Positions 20,640 through 45,172 of a stretch of DNA of 47,663 bases are shown here, piece after piece. The stretch spans positions 1 through 47,663 of the forward strand of contig NZ_BLZO01000092.1 in the NCBI RefSeq assembly GCF_014132355.1, written 5' to 3'. The position numbers and the translations under genes are program-made. Origin of the DNA: Okeania sp. KiyG1 (GTDB taxonomy: Bacteria > Cyanobacteriota > Cyanobacteriia > Cyanobacteriales > Microcoleaceae). The stretch's first letter is position 1; every line of letters begins with the position of its first letter. Under the pieces are notes generated by a model. That model was given only the letters and a program-made list of their open reading frames with translations. It made no database searches and was not told where the DNA came from.

Positions 20640-20845
20640 AATTTAGAATTTAGAATTTAGAATTTAGAATTACCTCTCCTTTAAAACGAAGAGGATTGAC
20701 TAATCATGAAAATTTTTCTTCTCTTGGTCGAGGGATGGTGAGGAAACCTCGCCATCCCACCCTTCGGGAAGCTGCGCTACGACCACTTTTATCCTCTTAA
20801 AAGAGGAGGCTTTCAACCGCAATTTTTCGGTAAATTATAAATAAA
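20640..20845. repeat. Dispersed 'ACCGAATAATTAAGG' repeat, reverse copy with nested palindrome
   Basis: This copy runs opposite to the one at 2565. It begins with TTTAGAA heptamers, then CCTCTCC, the TCTTCTCTTGGTCGAGGGATG block and GAGGCTTTCAACC to ATTTTTCGGTAA. A small palindromic insertion CCTTCGGGAAGCTGCGCTACGA (two segments, about 20761-20783) interrupts it. Confidence 0.7.
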
Positions 20846-21839: not shown

Positions 21840-22312
21840 TTGACTTCTCTGTTGGTTAAAACACGAGAGATTTTAAGCGGATGTTCCGAATCGGGTTAAA
21901 ACCACGATTCTCCAAGTTTCACACTTAACTGTCACCGACAATTAGTCAGTGGTGGCCGCTGATGAGCCACCTAGACGCTCTGACATACTGATGATTAATA
22001 TCATATGCTTTGCGCTTACTTTTAATAATTAATCCTTTAAGAGTGGTTTTACTCAAAGAGCGAGCTATAAATCCCTATCTTTGCTGCCTGCTTGTCTGTT
22101 GCCTTGGTCTTGGTAGCGATTTATGTCCTACTAGTTTCCTTCCGACGGGAATTTCACCCCTACTAGCAAAGGTTCATCGGGACAAACCTTGTTCTTACTC
22201 CCATGAATATATTATCTCATATTTTGTGATATAGGAGATTAAAATTTCCAACTTGTTTTGATCCATCGGCTGAAGTCTGACGACATTTCAACTGCCAAAT
22301 TCAAGGTAATAT
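21840..22312. other. Region with palindromes, no convincing gene
   Basis: Contains inverted repeats such as ACGAGAG/CTCTGTTGG-like arms and CCGAATCGGG...CCACGATTC at 21880-21925, and GC-richer segments at 21940-21985 and 22105-22195. A 74-codon frame at 22010-22234 has no domain. On the minus strand the layout (basic open pieces then stems) could be a worn tnpB tail, but I cannot confirm it. Confidence 0.3.
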
Positions 22313-31098: not shown

Positions 31099-31334
31099 TT
31101 TATAGATATAGATTTAATAGTAATACCATTTCTCTCTGAAGTTACGCTTAATAAAAGATGATAATTATCAGAAAAATCAGGTCAGGGCAAAAATTATTAA
31201 GTGCATCGTTACAAAGAAATTATATTAGGTTGAATAAAGTTTTAGGTAATAGGTATTAGGTTCAATTGAAAATTCAACTCTAATCAGTTATAGAAACCGT
31301 AAATAAAGTCATATTTTCTACACTGATAACCTGA

Positions 31335-32880
31335 CACCTACAACTAAAGTCCCGGTAGGGAGGATAAATCATATATTTAGGAATTAGGCATTTTTGAGTT
31401 CTAGAGACTAAATATTATCTATAACGTTATAGTTTTTCTCCCTATATGTTGATTTACCTAAATTCCGAATATCTATAACGTTATAGTTGTAAACACTACA
31501 TATCTATAACGTTATAGTTTTTCTCCCTATATCTATAGTTGATTTACCTAAATTCCGAGTCGCCTACCACCTACAACTAAAGTCCCGGTAGAGAGGATAA
31601 ATCATATATTTAGGAATTAGGGATTTTTGAGTTGTAAACACTACATATCTATAACGTTATAGTTTTTCTCCCTATATCTATATCTATAGTTGATTTACCT
31701 AAATTCCGAGTCCCCTGCCACCTAATACTAAAGTCCCAGTAGAGAGGATAAATCATATATTTAGGAATTAAGGATTTTTGAGTTGTAAACACTACATATC
31801 TATAACGTTATAGTTTTTCTCCCTATATATATAGTTGATTTACCTAAATTCCGAGTCCCCTGCCACCTACAACTAAAGTCCCGGTACAGAGGATAAATCA
31901 TATATTTAGGAATTAGGGATTTTTGAGTTGTAAACACTACATATCTATAACGTTATAGTTTTTCTCCCTATATCTATATCTATATATATAGTTGATTTAC
32001 CTAAATTCCGATCGCCTACCACCTGCAACTAAAGTCCCGGTAGAGAGGATAAATCATATATTTAGGAATTAGGGATTTTTGAGTTGTAAACACTACATAT
32101 CTATAACGTTATAGTTTTTCTCGCTATATATATAGTTTATTTACCTAAATTCCGAGTCGCCTACCACCTACAACTAAAGTCCCGGTAGAGAGGATAAATC
32201 ATATATTTAGGAATTAGGGATTTTTGAGTTGTAAACACTACATATCTATAACGTTATAGTTTTTCTCCCTATATCTATATCTATATATATAGTTGATTTA
32301 CCTAAATTCCGATCGCCTACCACCTGCAACTAAAGTCCCGGTAGAGAGGATAAATCATATATTTAGGAATTAGGGATTTTTGAGTTCTAGAGACGACATA
32401 TCTATAACGTTATAGTTTTTCTCCCTATATATATAGTTGATTTACCTAAATTCCGAGTCCCCTACCACCTACAACTAAAGTCCCGGTAGAGAGGATAAAT
32501 CATATATTTAGGAATTAGGGATTTTTGAGTTCTAGAGACGACATATCTATAACGTTATAGTTTTTCTCCCTATATATATAGTTGATTTACCTAAATTCCG
32601 AGTCCCCTACCACCTACAACTAAAGTCCCGGTAGAGAGGATAAATCATATATTTAGGAATTAGGGATTTTTGAGTTCTAGAGACGACATATCTATAACGT
32701 TATAGTTTTTCTCCCTATATATAGTTGATTTACCTAAATTCCGATCGCCTACCACCTGCAACTAAAGTCCCGGTACAGAGGATAAATCATATATTTAGGA
32801 ATTAGGGATTTTTGAGTTCTAGAGACGACATATCTATAACGTTATAGTTTTTCTCGCTATATATAATAGTTGAAGCAAAG
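31335..32880. repeat. Large tandem array with 12 copies of the palindrome CTATAACGTTATAG
   Basis: About ten units of 143-156 bases. Each holds ACTAAAGTCCCGGTAGAGAGG, ATAAATCATATATTTAGGAATTAGGG, TTTTTGAGTTNTANA, CTATAACGTTATAGTTTTTCTCCC, a TATA/TATCTA microsatellite, then GTTGATTTACCTAAATTCCGA and a CTACCACCT linker. Unit anchors are near 31341, 31575, 31727, 31871, 32027, 32171, 32327, 32471, 32617 and 32760. The first interval holds two extra palindromes, making 12. No reading frame persists. 31099-31334 before it has no gene. Confidence 0.9.
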
Positions 32881-33570: not shown

Positions 33571-33758
33571 TAAAATTTACCGAATAATTAAGGTTTAAAA
33601 CCTCTCCTTTAAAGGAGAAAAAAGCGGTGGAGGGATGGATGGGTTTCCTAACCATATCCAATCGACCAAGAGAACAAAAAATTATCCTTTTAGTCAATCC
33701 TCTTCTTTTCAAGGAGGGGTAATTATTAATTATTAATTATTAATTATTCATTGTTGAA
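33571..33758. repeat. Dispersed 'ACCGAATAATTAAGG' repeat, direct copy
   Basis: Full copy: ACCGAATAATTAAGG, CTCCTTTAAAGGAG, AAAGCGGTGGAGGGATGG, CATATCCAATCGACCAAGAG, then CCTCTTCTTTTCAAGGAGGGG and TAATTAT heptamers (33721-33755). It ends 15 bases before the DUF815 stop codon. Confidence 0.8.
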
Positions 33759-40215: not shown

Positions 40216-40528
40216 CGTTATTATGGTAGAGCCTTTTTTAGTTGATTATGGCATGAAACAATTTACTTATCTTGACATCTACAATTGAACAAATAGTTTG
40301 AATTAAGTATATTTTCCTGATACCAAAACTGAAAATTAGAAGCTTAATTGTAGTCCTTAAGCATTAATTGATAGAGATATGTTACTCCAGAACACAAATT
40401 AATTCCGATTTAGAAGTGTAATATATAAACCAAAATAATAATTTTGGCCACTCAAAACAAAAGCACAATTTTAACGGTGCTATTATAGATAGAAGCAAAG
40501 CTAAAATCAGGTATAGGGAGTTAAGTGG

Positions 40529-40978
40529 ATGAGTCATGAAATAATAGCAATCAAGAGACCTGTTAGGCCAAAACAGCCTATTGATCCAAATTCTCCGAAG
40601 GAGGAGCTTCAGGAACAAACTGAGTCAAAATTAGAAAAACCAATTCCCACAAAAAATAGCCTTTCATCAAGAGCAAAAGGTACAAATGAAAGACAATTAA
40701 GAAAACCTATAAGTAAACCAGAAAGACCTAAAAAACCAGGAAAGCCAAAGCTAAAAGAATCTATCCAACAAGTTACCAATGCTAATGGAAAAGTTTTTAC
40801 TTCGGGGGATAAAATTTTAGTATCAGCACCCTGGAGTGGTATGGTAGAAGCTGAAATTACGGGTTTTTATAAAAGTCCTGAAGGTTCAATCTGGGCAATT
40901 TTTCTTCCTCAAGAATCTCTACCTAAGTGGAAGTGGGAAAAAGGTTGTATCCGGGCTGAATTATTAAAACAACCATAA
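40529..40978 (+). CDS. Uncharacterised cyanobacterial protein with Lys/Pro-rich N-terminus
   Basis: 149 residues. Residues 1-80 are low complexity and basic (RPVRPKQPIDPNSPKEE, KPERPKKPGKPK), likely disordered. Residues about 85-149 form a compact domain, VFTSGDKILVSAPWSGMVEA through WEKGCIRAELLKQP, with an SH3-like strand pattern. GGAG lies about 10 bases before the ATG. Function unknown; the domain resembles hypothetical proteins of filamentous cyanobacteria. It diverges from the kinase gene across 313 bases that hold no other gene. Confidence 0.6.
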   Translation: MSHEIIAIKRPVRPKQPIDPNSPKEELQEQTESKLEKPIPTKNSLSSRAKGTNERQLRKPISKPERPKKPGKPKLKESIQQVTNANGKVFTSGDKILVSAPWSGMVEAEITGFYKSPEGSIWAIFLPQESLPKWKWEKGCIRAELLKQP

Positions 40979-41507
40979 TTAAGGCAAGACAAATATTAAA
41001 TTCAGGATAATTTAGCATCTAAAAATCCTAAGAAATATAGCAGGATGATTTGGGTTATTTAGAAAATATCCTGAACAAAACTAATAGGGAACAGGAAAAA
41101 AATCTCTTGAAGAAACAGAGTGGGGAGAGGATATCTTTTACTCTTTTCTCCTGTTCCATCAAGATTCAATCAAACTAAATATAACTCTATACTAAATCTG
41201 ATTTAGATAGGTTACTTCTTAAGGTAGCAAATAAAGATTTATCCAAATAGTATAACTCAAACTAATAAATTCTTTAAAGCGCTGAAAGTGTCAGTTTTTC
41301 TGGAGTTAATTCTTGAGCAAATCGGAAAACAAAATTTTCTTGTTGTTTAGTTTTTATTGTGTATTGACGAGTTTGTCTGACCTTAGCGATCGCTTCTACT
41401 GCAGAATAACCTAAAGCTACTAAACAACAAGCAGCAACTGTTCCGGTACGTCCCAATCCAGCTTTACAATGAATTACTACTATTTGTCCTTCTTTTACTA
41501 CTTTCAA

Positions 41508-41672
41508 AATATAGCAATATGATTTTAGTTGTGAGATATTGGAGACTTTTGCTTTAGGGAATAGGGAATAGGGAATAGGGAAGAAATGAAGACATAAGAA
41601 TAAGATAACTGCTATATCCTATACTTTAAAGGAACACCTCAATTCTCACATCTGATTCCTGATTGCTATATT
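41508..41672. mobile_element. 165-bp MITE inserted in the phosphatase gene
   Basis: Ends AATATAGCAAT...TGTGAGA and TCTCACA...GATTGCTATATT are imperfect inverted repeats. It contains a TAGGGAA heptamer run. It separates codons for INN from those for LKVVKEGQ. The flanking AT/TA fits a TA-duplicating (IS630/Tc1-like) insertion, by inference. A related end, GATTGCTATAG, occurs at 43096-43106. Confidence 0.8.
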
Positions 41673-41859
41673 GTTAATTAGATGAATAAACTCATCTATT
41701 GAGGTAGGAATGCTTCGATATTTAATGGTAAATCTGATATTTTTTATTCCTTGTGCTTCTGCTACTTTTCCCTGGTCAGAAATTTGTATGTCTTCTAATT
41801 CATGTTCTTCTAGAAGTGTTATTAGTATATCTATCTCATAGTCTAACCGTAGTCTTCAA

Positions 41860-42960
41860 CAATTAATAATTAATAATTAATAATTACCGAGAATTTGTGG
41901 GTATGCGCCTACACTTTTAAGGGGATAAAAAAAGAGAATTCTGTATTTTCTTGCCTCCTTATTGCAGAGGTACTGATAACTGATAACTGTTAACGCAGTT
42001 CCTCCGGAGGAGGCTAACTGATAACTGAAATGACTTCTCCTTGAAAAGAAGAGGATTGACGCGGAGCATGAAATTTTTTTCTTTTTATCCTTTAAAATAA
42101 AGGCTTGAAACCTTAATTATTCGGTAATAAATCTTTATTCAAATCTCCATCCCAATCCAAGTGCATACCGAAATTTTTCTGACCGATAAATTGTGGTGTA
42201 AAACCTCCTATTTTAAGGGGATAAAAAAAGAGAATTCCGTATTTTCGTAGCCTCCTTATTGCAGAGGTAATGATAACTGATAATTGAAATGACTTCTCCT
42301 TGAAAAGAAGAGCATTGACGTGGAGCATGAAATTTTTTTCTTTTTTATCCTTTAAAATCAAGGCTTTAAACCTTAATTATCCGGTAATAAATCTTGATTC
42401 AAATCTCCATCCCAATCCAAGTGCATACCGAAATTTTTCTTACGGATAAATTGTGGTGTAAAAACTCCTATTTTAAGGGGATAAAAAAAGAGAATTCCGT
42501 ATTTTCGTAGCCTCCTTATTGCAGAGGTAATGATAACTGATAACTGAAATGACTTCTCCTTGAAAAGAAGAGCATTGACGTGGAGCATGAAATTTTTTTC
42601 TTTTTATCCTTTAAAAGAAAGACTTGAAACCTTAATTATTCGGTAATAAATCTTGATTCAAATCTCCATCCCAATCCAAGTGCATACCGAAATTTTTCTG
42701 ACCGATAAATTGTGGTGTAAAAACTCCTATTTTAAGGGGATAAAAAAAGAGAATTCCGTATTTTCGTAGCCTCCTTATTGCAGAGGTACTGATAATTGAT
42801 CAATAACTGATAACTGAAATTACCTAATAATTAATAATTAATAATTAATAATTAAATAATTCGCGCCTTGAAGCCTCCCTTTTAAGGGGAAAAAAGAAAT
42901 AATATTTCCTTATATTCAATACTCTCGGTTTTAACCAGAGGTAATTATCCATTATCCATT
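41860..42960. repeat. Repeat block in the phosphatase gene, three 260-bp tandem units
   Basis: Reverse copies of the dispersed repeat alternate with phosphatase piece 2; anchors TAATAAATCTT are at 42125, 42385 and 42644 (spacing 260 and 259). AACTGAT and AATTAAT heptamers lie at 41860-41885, 41975-42020 and 42820-42855. The frames 42113-42361 and 42373-42588 are products of this duplication and not separate genes. Confidence 0.8.
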
Positions 42961-43099
42961 AATGAATAGGAGCTAAGGTCATACCAATTTTACCCTTTAA
43001 ATTCACTACTTCTGGTGTTAAGAAATCGACATTAATGGGGTAATTGTCAGAATTTTTGAGTTGTTTAATAATTTCTATATTAGCTACAAATAAGGATTG

Positions 43100-43336
43100 C
43101 TATAGTTAAAATTAAATTTAATAAATTTTACCTAAAAATTAAGGTATAAAGCCTCTTTATTCATGGAGAAAAAAGCGGTCGTTTTGCTACGCAACATATA
43201 AAGCGTAGCTTCCCATAGGGTGGGATGAGGAGGTCTCGGAGCAATATCCAATCGACCAAGAGAAGAAAAAAATTCCTTTTAACCCAATCCTCTTGTTTTC
43301 AAGGAGAGGTAATTCTAAATTCGCGCATTCTAAATT
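43100..43336. repeat. Dispersed repeat copy with nested palindrome
   Basis: TTTACCTAAAAATTAAGG, GAGAAAAAAGCGGT, an inserted palindrome GCTACGCAACATATAAAGCG-TAGC, then AATATCCAATCGACCAAGAG, CCTCTTGTTTTCAAGGAGAGG and TCTAAAT heptamers ending at the stop of the DUF3226 gene. Confidence 0.8.
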
Positions 43337-44005
43337 CTAAATTCTTGAAAGGTCATATAATTTTTTAAACCAGTTAATAAATGTTTGAGCTTGGGGATGT
43401 TTTGGATTTAATATTCTTTCCATCACAGCATTATGTAATTGGCGACCAGGAGGATTTTGCCAAGCTAACCATGTATGAATATTAGCTTTATCAGTGTGAT
43501 TTTCTATGAATGGCGCACCTTTATTTTTAGCTTCCATAACAACTGTTTGTGCATAATTCCAAAGTAGTTCTTTTTCGTCAGGAATTATATAAGTCAGAAA
43601 TGTTTCTAACATTCCAGACATTTTATTGTCTGGCATCATCCACACTCCAAATTTAACACCAGAATTAGTCATAAGAATTAGACCTGTTTCTGGTAAATTT
43701 TCAGGAAAATCAGGAATACTTGGTAAACAAACATTCCTAATATTTTGCCATCTATCCTTTGAATTATCATCTGCATCAACTATTAGACCTAATGCAGAAA
43801 GTCCAGATGCTTTTAACTCTGTAGAAATTACATTTTTATTTAGTAGTTTTTCTATACCATCACAAGATTCAATATATACAAATGGTTGTTTATTTTTATA
43901 TTCCCAAGGAATATCATTAGCTTCTATCAAATATGGAATAACTCTTTTATCCTCATCACCCTCTACTAAAAGTTTATTTCTGGGAGGAACAGATTTTTTT
44001 GCCAT
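43337..44005 (-). CDS. DUF3226 TOPRIM-like nuclease-type protein
   Basis: 222 residues. The TOPRIM pattern is clear: KLLVEGDEDKRVIPYL (Glu15) and SALGLIVDADDNSKDRW (the D-x-D). A second half with FGVWMMPDNKMSGMLETFL and AKNKGAPFIENHTDKANIHTWLAW fits DUF3226/DUF4276-like proteins. TOPRIM proteins cleave or bind nucleic acids with Mg2+. The ATG is two bases after the stop of the AAA ATPase gene, so the two are one operon. Such ATPase-TOPRIM pairs are known from OLD and PARIS anti-phage systems. Whether this pair acts that way is inference. Confidence 0.85.
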   Translation of the reverse strand: MAKKSVPPRNKLLVEGDEDKRVIPYLIEANDIPWEYKNKQPFVYIESCDGIEKLLNKNVISTELKASGLSALGLIVDADDNSKDRWQNIRNVCLPSIPDFPENLPETGLILMTNSGVKFGVWMMPDNKMSGMLETFLTYIIPDEKELLWNYAQTVVMEAKNKGAPFIENHTDKANIHTWLAWQNPPGRQLHNAVMERILNPKHPQAQTFINWFKKLYDLSRI

Positions 44006-44007
44006 TA

Positions 44008-45172
44008 CTAACGTACCTCTATGTCACGTTGTGCAGCAATCACAATTTCAGGTTCTGTGAAAACTACAGAAGTATTTTTATTAGCTTCTATTCTGTGAAT
44101 TGTAATTTCTTCGCCCTCTAAATCTTCATTTTGAATAACATCAGCAAGACTACTCCAACAATCACTATTATGAGTAGTAGCAAAGACTTGAACATCTAAT
44201 TTTTTCGCTGTTTTCCAAATAAGTTTCCACATATCAGACATTGTAGAAAAATGTAAACCAGTATCAATTTCATCTACAAGTAATACTCCACCTTGAGCAG
44301 AAACAAGAGCGATCGCTAATGCTAAAATTCGCCATATTCCTTCTCCCATACTGCCAATAGGTATAGGTTTTTTTTGGTCAGAAACTTTTACTAGAAACCC
44401 ACCTCTTGCTCCTACAATTCTATTATTAGAACCGTATTTTTCAGGACCTATTGAAGCAATACGTTCAATTTTAGGTTCAATAATTTGCAGTGCTTCTAGG
44501 GTAAATGTTTCCTCTGGTGTTAAGACAATTTCATCAAATAATTGAGTAATTTCGTTAATATCCAAAGATAATGGTGTAATAAATTGAGATTTTGTAGCTG
44601 CTTTTGTAGCTTTTATAAATTGCCTTAACATAGTAATATCTATACCTCCATCAGATGATAATGGGTATCCTATTCTCGACAAATTAGATATAACTTCTTT
44701 TCTTTTCCAATCAAGCACAAAAAAATATCTTCTACTTTACCTAGTACATCACTAATTTCTTCTGAATTATCAGATAAAATTTCTTTTATATCATAATTAA
44801 ATTCTCCTAAATCATCTAATTGTTCATCCAATTTATTCCGTGAATCTGTTTGTATTGAAGCAACTATATTTTTATGATTTTTATCATTAGTTCCTACTAT
44901 AGAAAATTTGCTTCCTAGTGAAATTTCACGCCCATAGAAAAGGTGACGAATATCTAGCTCTTTATAGTCTTTTTTCCAGAAAAATTCTCCTCTATCAGAC
45001 ATTATTTTTTGAAGCTTTTCTGGTTGAAAAAGGAATATAAAAGTTGAATAGCCTCTAAAATAGAAGTTTTCCCACTATTATTCATGCCAACCAACAAATT
45101 AACTCTGCCAAGGTTTTGAAGTTCAAAAGATTGGAAGCAACGAAAATTATTTATAGTTAACGATTTCAACAT
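44008..45172 (-). pseudogene. AAA ATPase (ABC/OLD-like), two frameshifts
   Basis: Three open pieces make one ATPase of about 388 residues. Start ATG at 45172 with AGGAAA just upstream: MLKSLTINNFRCFQSF, Walker A GMNNSGKTSILEAI. One T missing in run 45005-45010 joins this to IMSDRGEFFWKKDYKELDIR. One A missing in run 44719-44725 joins DIFFVLDWKRKEV. The signature-like GSMGEGIWRILALAIAL, Walker B GVLLVDEIDTGLHF and H-loop FATTHNSDCW follow. Family: AAA_15/AAA_21 ATPases. It directly precedes the TOPRIM gene. Inactive as read, whole if the two runs are corrected. Confidence 0.88.

Follow-up and report, generated by a model that had tools for sequence, protein, structure and literature searches.

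Contig NZ_BLZO01000092.1 of the marine cyanobacterium Okeania sp. KiyG1 (assembly GCF_014132355.1, contig-level, 198 contigs) was analysed as a single stretch of 47,663 nt, hereafter the window. Between 41274 and 43097 its minus strand carries four successive parts of what reads as a phosphatase gene (F1 to F4), one of them present three times, with small inserts between them. The best match to F4 outside its own genome is found in Okeania sp. SIO2F4 (G022), a member of another genus in the same family; it is 79% identical and keeps a stop-free frame of 237 codons on the 5790-nt contig L099. Matches to F4 at E <=0.001 occur in 26 of the 60 related genomes searched, broken ones counted too. The features are given below in gene order, with gene nucleotides counted from codon 2.

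42969..43097, minus strand: F1, 5′ part of the phosphatase pseudogene; covers gene nt 1-101 and some 28 nt upstream
42704..42968: insert C, 265 nt; TTAC-type repeat on the left, followed by a heptamer run and another repeat copy; no insert at this site in G022
42644..42703, minus strand: F2a, first copy in gene order; gene nt 103-162
42445..42643: R2, hybrid repeat; left half C-like, right half B-like
42385..42444, minus strand: F2b, second copy; gene nt 103-162, aligned from 104
42185..42384: R1, hybrid repeat; left half C-like, right half B-like
42125..42184, minus strand: F2c, third copy; gene nt 103-162
41857..42124: insert B, 268 nt; minus-strand TTAC-type repeat interrupted by a second copy; site empty in G022
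41668..41856, minus strand: F3; gene nt 162-350; holds P98T (41729-41727) and D101Y (41720-41718)
41513..41667: insert A, 155 nt between F4 and F3; MITE by its ends TATAGCAAT/ATTGCTATA and TA target
41274..41512, minus strand: F4; gene nt 347 to the stop codon, aligned 347-583; phosphate-binding loop HCKAGLGR intact

The intact ORF of G022 lies at the corresponding chromosomal place, with synteny on both flanks: one flank has a kinase-like gene and a gene of 149 aa, the other an ATPase/TOPRIM-like pair (labels from a reading of the ORFs). Flank pieces of at least 278 nt are 81.5 to 88.5% identical to G022, and about 410 nt directly upstream in G022 are missing from the window. At 43337-45172 of the window a TOPRIM-like gene adjoins an ATPase-like gene divided among three ORFs and perhaps broken too (labels again from reading); the G022 counterpart of the TOPRIM-like gene carries a 131-nt insert. 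Elsewhere in the window, 31225-32865 is a long tandem array with self-overlapping matches to G001, G003 and G004, and a 466-nt stretch at 21840-22305 is missing, with exact junctions, in G003, a member of the window's genus.

Collinearity with an intact phosphatase gene

The 237-codon stop-to-stop frame of L004 (the same place as L099) was compared by tblastn with window 40500-44000. F1 was recovered at E 4.5e-20, the three F2 copies at E 7e-9 to 1e-8, and F3 and F4 together in a single gapped match at E 5e-65. Seven of the 14 frames from relatives were used, with L005-L008, L010, L018 and L019 left out as wrong-strand readings. At base level, the alignment to the intact gene shows zero indels and zero internal stops within the pieces F1 to F4. 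Identity to G022 is 90.7% for F1, 90.0, 89.8 and 88.3% for the three F2 copies, 89.9% for F3 and 85.2% for F4; similarity in F1 reaches 43097, the position of the start codon being 43072-43070. No bases are unaccounted for at inserts A and B and at most 1-3 at insert C. Since the pieces tile the gene end to end, only these 1-3 bases at C have been lost.

The protein encoded on L099 matches PF00782 (E 1.9e-12) and PF22785 (E 5.2e-15), both over the curated cut-offs. F4 alone matches PF22784 above its cut-off (E 2e-9) and reaches 32.0 bits with PF00782, just below the cut-off of 33.5, and F3 alone matches no family. The HCxxGxxR loop is kept, F4 reading HCKAGLGR.

A preliminary description of this DNA had proposed four ordered minus-strand parts of one phosphatase, and their collinearity with one intact protein, in E values and in tiling, bears this out. 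Its boundaries needed revision: 60 nt of F2 (at 42125-42184, and likewise in the other copies) belong to the gene, not 82, F3 becomes 41668-41856, and F4 extends to 41512. What it had called a dispersed repeat between the F2 copies is really two head-to-head repeat pieces of one broader family.

Inserts and tandem triplication

Judged by its sequence, insert A is a TA-target MITE. The window reads AAAATAT, then the insert, then ATATTGTTAA; the site is empty in G022, where it reads AGAATATTATTAA, and also in the broken gene copy of G005. Inside the insert the heptamer TAGGGAA stands four times (41555-41582). The family occupies at least 41 places in the own genome (40 scored of 483 candidates). 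Among 28 complete copies from 29 loci, with four partial rows left out of the tally, the left end reads TATAGC in 24 and the right end GCTATA in 26, as counted by eye.

Inserts B and C represent a different family, with at least 51 places in the own genome (40 scored of 1561 candidates). Their halves are repeats of about 100 nt each, usually starting TTAC/CGA, and B and C are each built from such repeats nested in one another; matches to the B/C query outside the three units of the window cover at most half of the query. Insert B includes a heptamer run at 41861-41886. The left side of insert C is TTAC in G022 and TGAC in two of the three window copies, while its right side is mismatched, with no clean target signature.

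F2 together with its repeat forms a tandem array of 3.0 copies with a period of 259-260, as had been read at the outset from a 260-base spacing. The left halves of R1 and R2 each differ from C at 7 of 108 positions, against 20 of 107 and 21 of 107 for B. On the right they come close to B, with 8 differences in 113 positions and 6 in 114, C having no comparable right half, and R1 differs from R2 at 3 of 108 and 6 of 113. Hybrid repeats that are C-like on the left and B-like on the right, lying between F2 copies, are the pattern that unequal crossover of B with C should leave. Because the F2 copies mutually differ at 1-3 of 60 bases, less than the roughly 10% that separates them from G022, the amplification appears from these sequences to be younger than the split from G022. 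Thus the original suggestion of repeat insertion followed by amplification in one gene gains support from the empty A, B and C sites of G022, the second empty A site in G005 and the hybrid repeats.

State of the gene

The phosphatase of the window is not one ORF with a start codon, its frame being broken by the three inserts. The start position reads ATT in the window and ATG in both G022 and G012; a stop lies two codons upstream of the ATG in G012, and in the window no in-frame ATG, GTG or TTG is found between the ATT and the upstream stop. The motif FPI-x-D is present in all 10 intact homologues chosen for alignment, and its Asp, upstream of the loop, we take to be the general acid of this fold. 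The window reads FTIKY, with the changes P98T and D101Y at positions that are fixed in the ten aligned homologues.

A codon model applied to 188 of 193 codons from three taxa, with a saturated outgroup branch, gave an own-branch omega of 0.20 when left free (lnL -1349.12 versus -1350.50 at omega 1, twice the difference being 2.76). With the same taxa and outgroup, giving the own branch and the G022 branch a common omega fits equally well (lnL -1349.14). Polarised changes number 12 nonsynonymous to 10 synonymous on the own branch (with F2a) and 13 to 12 on the G022 branch, 15 ambiguous sites being left out. The codon model, which had little power here, does not reject ongoing constraint, and with indels and internal stops absent from every piece, these sequence changes fall short of proving that the pieces evolve neutrally.

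The gene is almost certainly dead, and we infer that its death was fairly recent. No good second copy was found in the own genome, where the next best matches have E 0.09 and 0.89 (F4) and 0.03 and 0.06 (whole protein). A plasmid search with the 2.4-kb region gave zero matches; with F4 it gave 11 records, all below 60% identity.

Loss of the gene in the genus

None of six draft genomes of the genus, the own one included, contains an intact copy. Broken pieces are present in five of these six drafts, again counting the own genome, and G001 is without a match at E 0.1. G002 and G005 have a common truncated remnant in which the phosphate-loop stretch is missing, and G003 and G004 have a common break at the GCGATCGC site, with an extra insert in G004. 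In G004 an insert of about 141 nt, at about 2698-2840 of L095, lies inside the gene remnant and has a short target overlap. The part of the gene that bears B and C in the window is gone in the genus relatives. Common ancestry of the breaks in the genus was considered for insert A and rejected, the A site being empty in G005. As the relatives lost the gene by other routes, it seems dispensable in the genus.

Interpretation

The sequence relations described above make it very probable that the pieces come from one cyanobacterial gene for a dual-specificity/tyrosine-type phosphatase, which has been inactivated and is decaying. Its three inserts occupy positions that hold no insert in the intact, syntenic gene of G022. 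Unequal crossover between like-oriented repeats of B and C would have doubled the 60-nt stretch of the gene that lay between them, with a further exchange taking the two copies to three. As far as the phosphatase is concerned this is ordinary gene loss, a common decay process in a legible layout. The locus is an unusually complete fossil of the dismantling of a bacterial gene by small repeats, in which one can still trace the uninterrupted locus, the sites before insertion, the inserts themselves and the crossover that followed.

Alternatively, new small proteins might be made from individual short pieces, for instance from F4, which encodes 77 aa with an intact phosphate-binding loop. The frame of F4 is open, has a TTG start and keeps HCKAGLGRTG, and the corresponding end in G003 is open too, over 77 aa. 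However, F4 is without the FPI-x-D loop and the N-terminal half, the matched part in G003-G005 is without the phosphate loop, and stops interrupt it in G004 and G005; we regard such expression as distinctly unlikely.

The preliminary description had also raised the bolder idea that the inserts are removed from the transcript, by self-splicing or another RNA-level process, so that a working phosphatase is made. Pieces that tile exactly and are in frame within each piece would suit such removal, and the codon model is compatible with constraint. The product would nevertheless have an ATT at its start position with no usual in-frame start before the upstream stop, and Tyr in place of the FPI-x-D Asp, and three differing F2 copies would need reducing to one. 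Rfam covariance models, run at E up to 1 over window 40900-43500, identified no group I or group II intron, their three matches all being far below the cut-offs, and the relatives lost the gene in other ways, with no intact copy in any of the six genomes. The idea is not supported by these results, and we consider it highly improbable. Repeats are a known cause of misassembly and are present here in a contig-level assembly of 198 contigs, but the three units differ mutually (F2 at 1-3 of 60 bases, R1 from R2 at 3 of 108 and 6 of 113) and the junctions agree with empty sites in independent genomes, which makes an assembly artefact just as improbable.

A TTAC-associated repeat family

A profile built from 21 copies of the B/C-type repeat gave 81 hits, 78 of them distinct, in the window and 82 own-genome loci; 27 of the 82 loci had been fetched for repeat matches and supplied seeds, so the sample is not independent. 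Of the 78 distinct hits, among which are the 21 seed copies, 56 begin no later than model position 3, and 49 of these 56 have TTAC at their left end. In the 45 nt past the profile end the best period is 7 for 51 of 78 hits, as against 10 of 78 random places in the window. TTAC-associated copies are seen at window 2566, 33577, 43128 and other places, with heptamers of the types ATTAATT, TCTAAAT, TAACTGA and ATTATCC, the heptamer run preceding a TTGAA-like 3′ end.

Comparison with relatives provides empty sites for several copies. At 33581-33758 the empty site in G003 reads TTTAC/CACC and the filled site TTTAC/CGAATAATT...TTGTTGAA/CACC, an exact correspondence with no target duplication. The stretches 33592-33719 (against G004) and 33606-33695 (against G001) reflect shorter or internally deleted copies at this same site and not empty sites, so that loss in G003 is also possible; one G001 insert, matching by 13 nt only, was left out of the insert comparison. 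Relative to G022, B fits insertion after TTAC without duplication if the Arg codon was CGA, as it is in G012, and a further copy, U (43132-43349), fits with one substitution and no duplication. In these three clean cases (33581-33758, B and U) the heptamer runs lie inside the element. Insert C agrees with the rule in part. The rule fits on the right only at 20642-20835, where the left is ambiguous, and a related G004 insert at window 29250 departs from it, with a 4-nt overlap and no TTAC.

Folding of four window copies, performed without a shuffle control, gave one long imperfect hairpin and different, weaker structures for the others. An exact-string scan of about 1500 nt on each side of 24 own-genome Y1 matches, which diverged ends would escape, found no autonomous B/C parent; in the scanned loci the repeat ends sit beside, not around, a Y1 transposase.

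In its sequence features the B/C repeat resembles a non-autonomous IS200/IS605-type element. Tentatively, it may be an IS200/IS605-like element, non-autonomous and very abundant, that enters the genome after TTAC without target duplication, carries a heptamer run next to its 3′ end and thereby spreads heptamer arrays, a proposal to which we give somewhat less than an even chance. The repeat family is the part of this locus that could be new.

Comparison with known systems

MITEs of the IS630/Tc1-mariner type have short terminal inverted repeats and TA at their target. Insert A is like them in both, its ends and target having been compared. Disruption of genes by miniature repeats in a filamentous cyanobacterium is likewise known from Anabaena sp. 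90, for which the available part of PMC3542288 gives repeats of 77-541 bp, 15 of 147 lying in disrupted ORFs predicted as pseudogenes. Unlike the cases in that part of PMC3542288, the present locus has three inserts from two families in one gene, followed by tandem triplication. Since pseudogenes hit by MITEs have already been described, the gene is a well-preserved case of a known process.

Elements of the IS608 type within IS200/IS605 use a TTAC target and make no target duplication. The B/C repeats are like the non-autonomous members of IS200/IS605 in standing after TTAC without duplication at three clean empty sites and in having, by eye, short inverted stretches inside. They are unlike these elements in carrying heptamer arrays, in that no autonomous copy with their ends was found, and in that TTAC is missing at one polymorphic insertion of the B/C type, while others conform on a single side. 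A literature search (titles and abstract starts, among the matches listed) brought up no account of TTAC-targeted elements that carry heptamers.

Heptamer repeats of cyanobacteria are known as STRRs. The available part of PMC4679880 describes TAACTGA repeats in a range of Cyanobacteria and, in that part, reports no evident mechanism of horizontal transmission, a mobile element being named merely as a possibility. The window is like these cases, as far as the same part of PMC4679880 presents them, in having the TAACTGA unit and other tandem 7-mers, and unlike the TAACTGA repeats described there in that its runs form part of a dispersed repeat for which clean empty sites exist. If the tentative IS200/IS605-like reading is true, the spread of STRR and TAACTGA arrays in filamentous cyanobacteria would be explained by transposition of such elements, the 7-mer sequence changing rapidly between copies. 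These repeats thus offer a testable route for the movement of heptamer arrays in cyanobacterial genomes.
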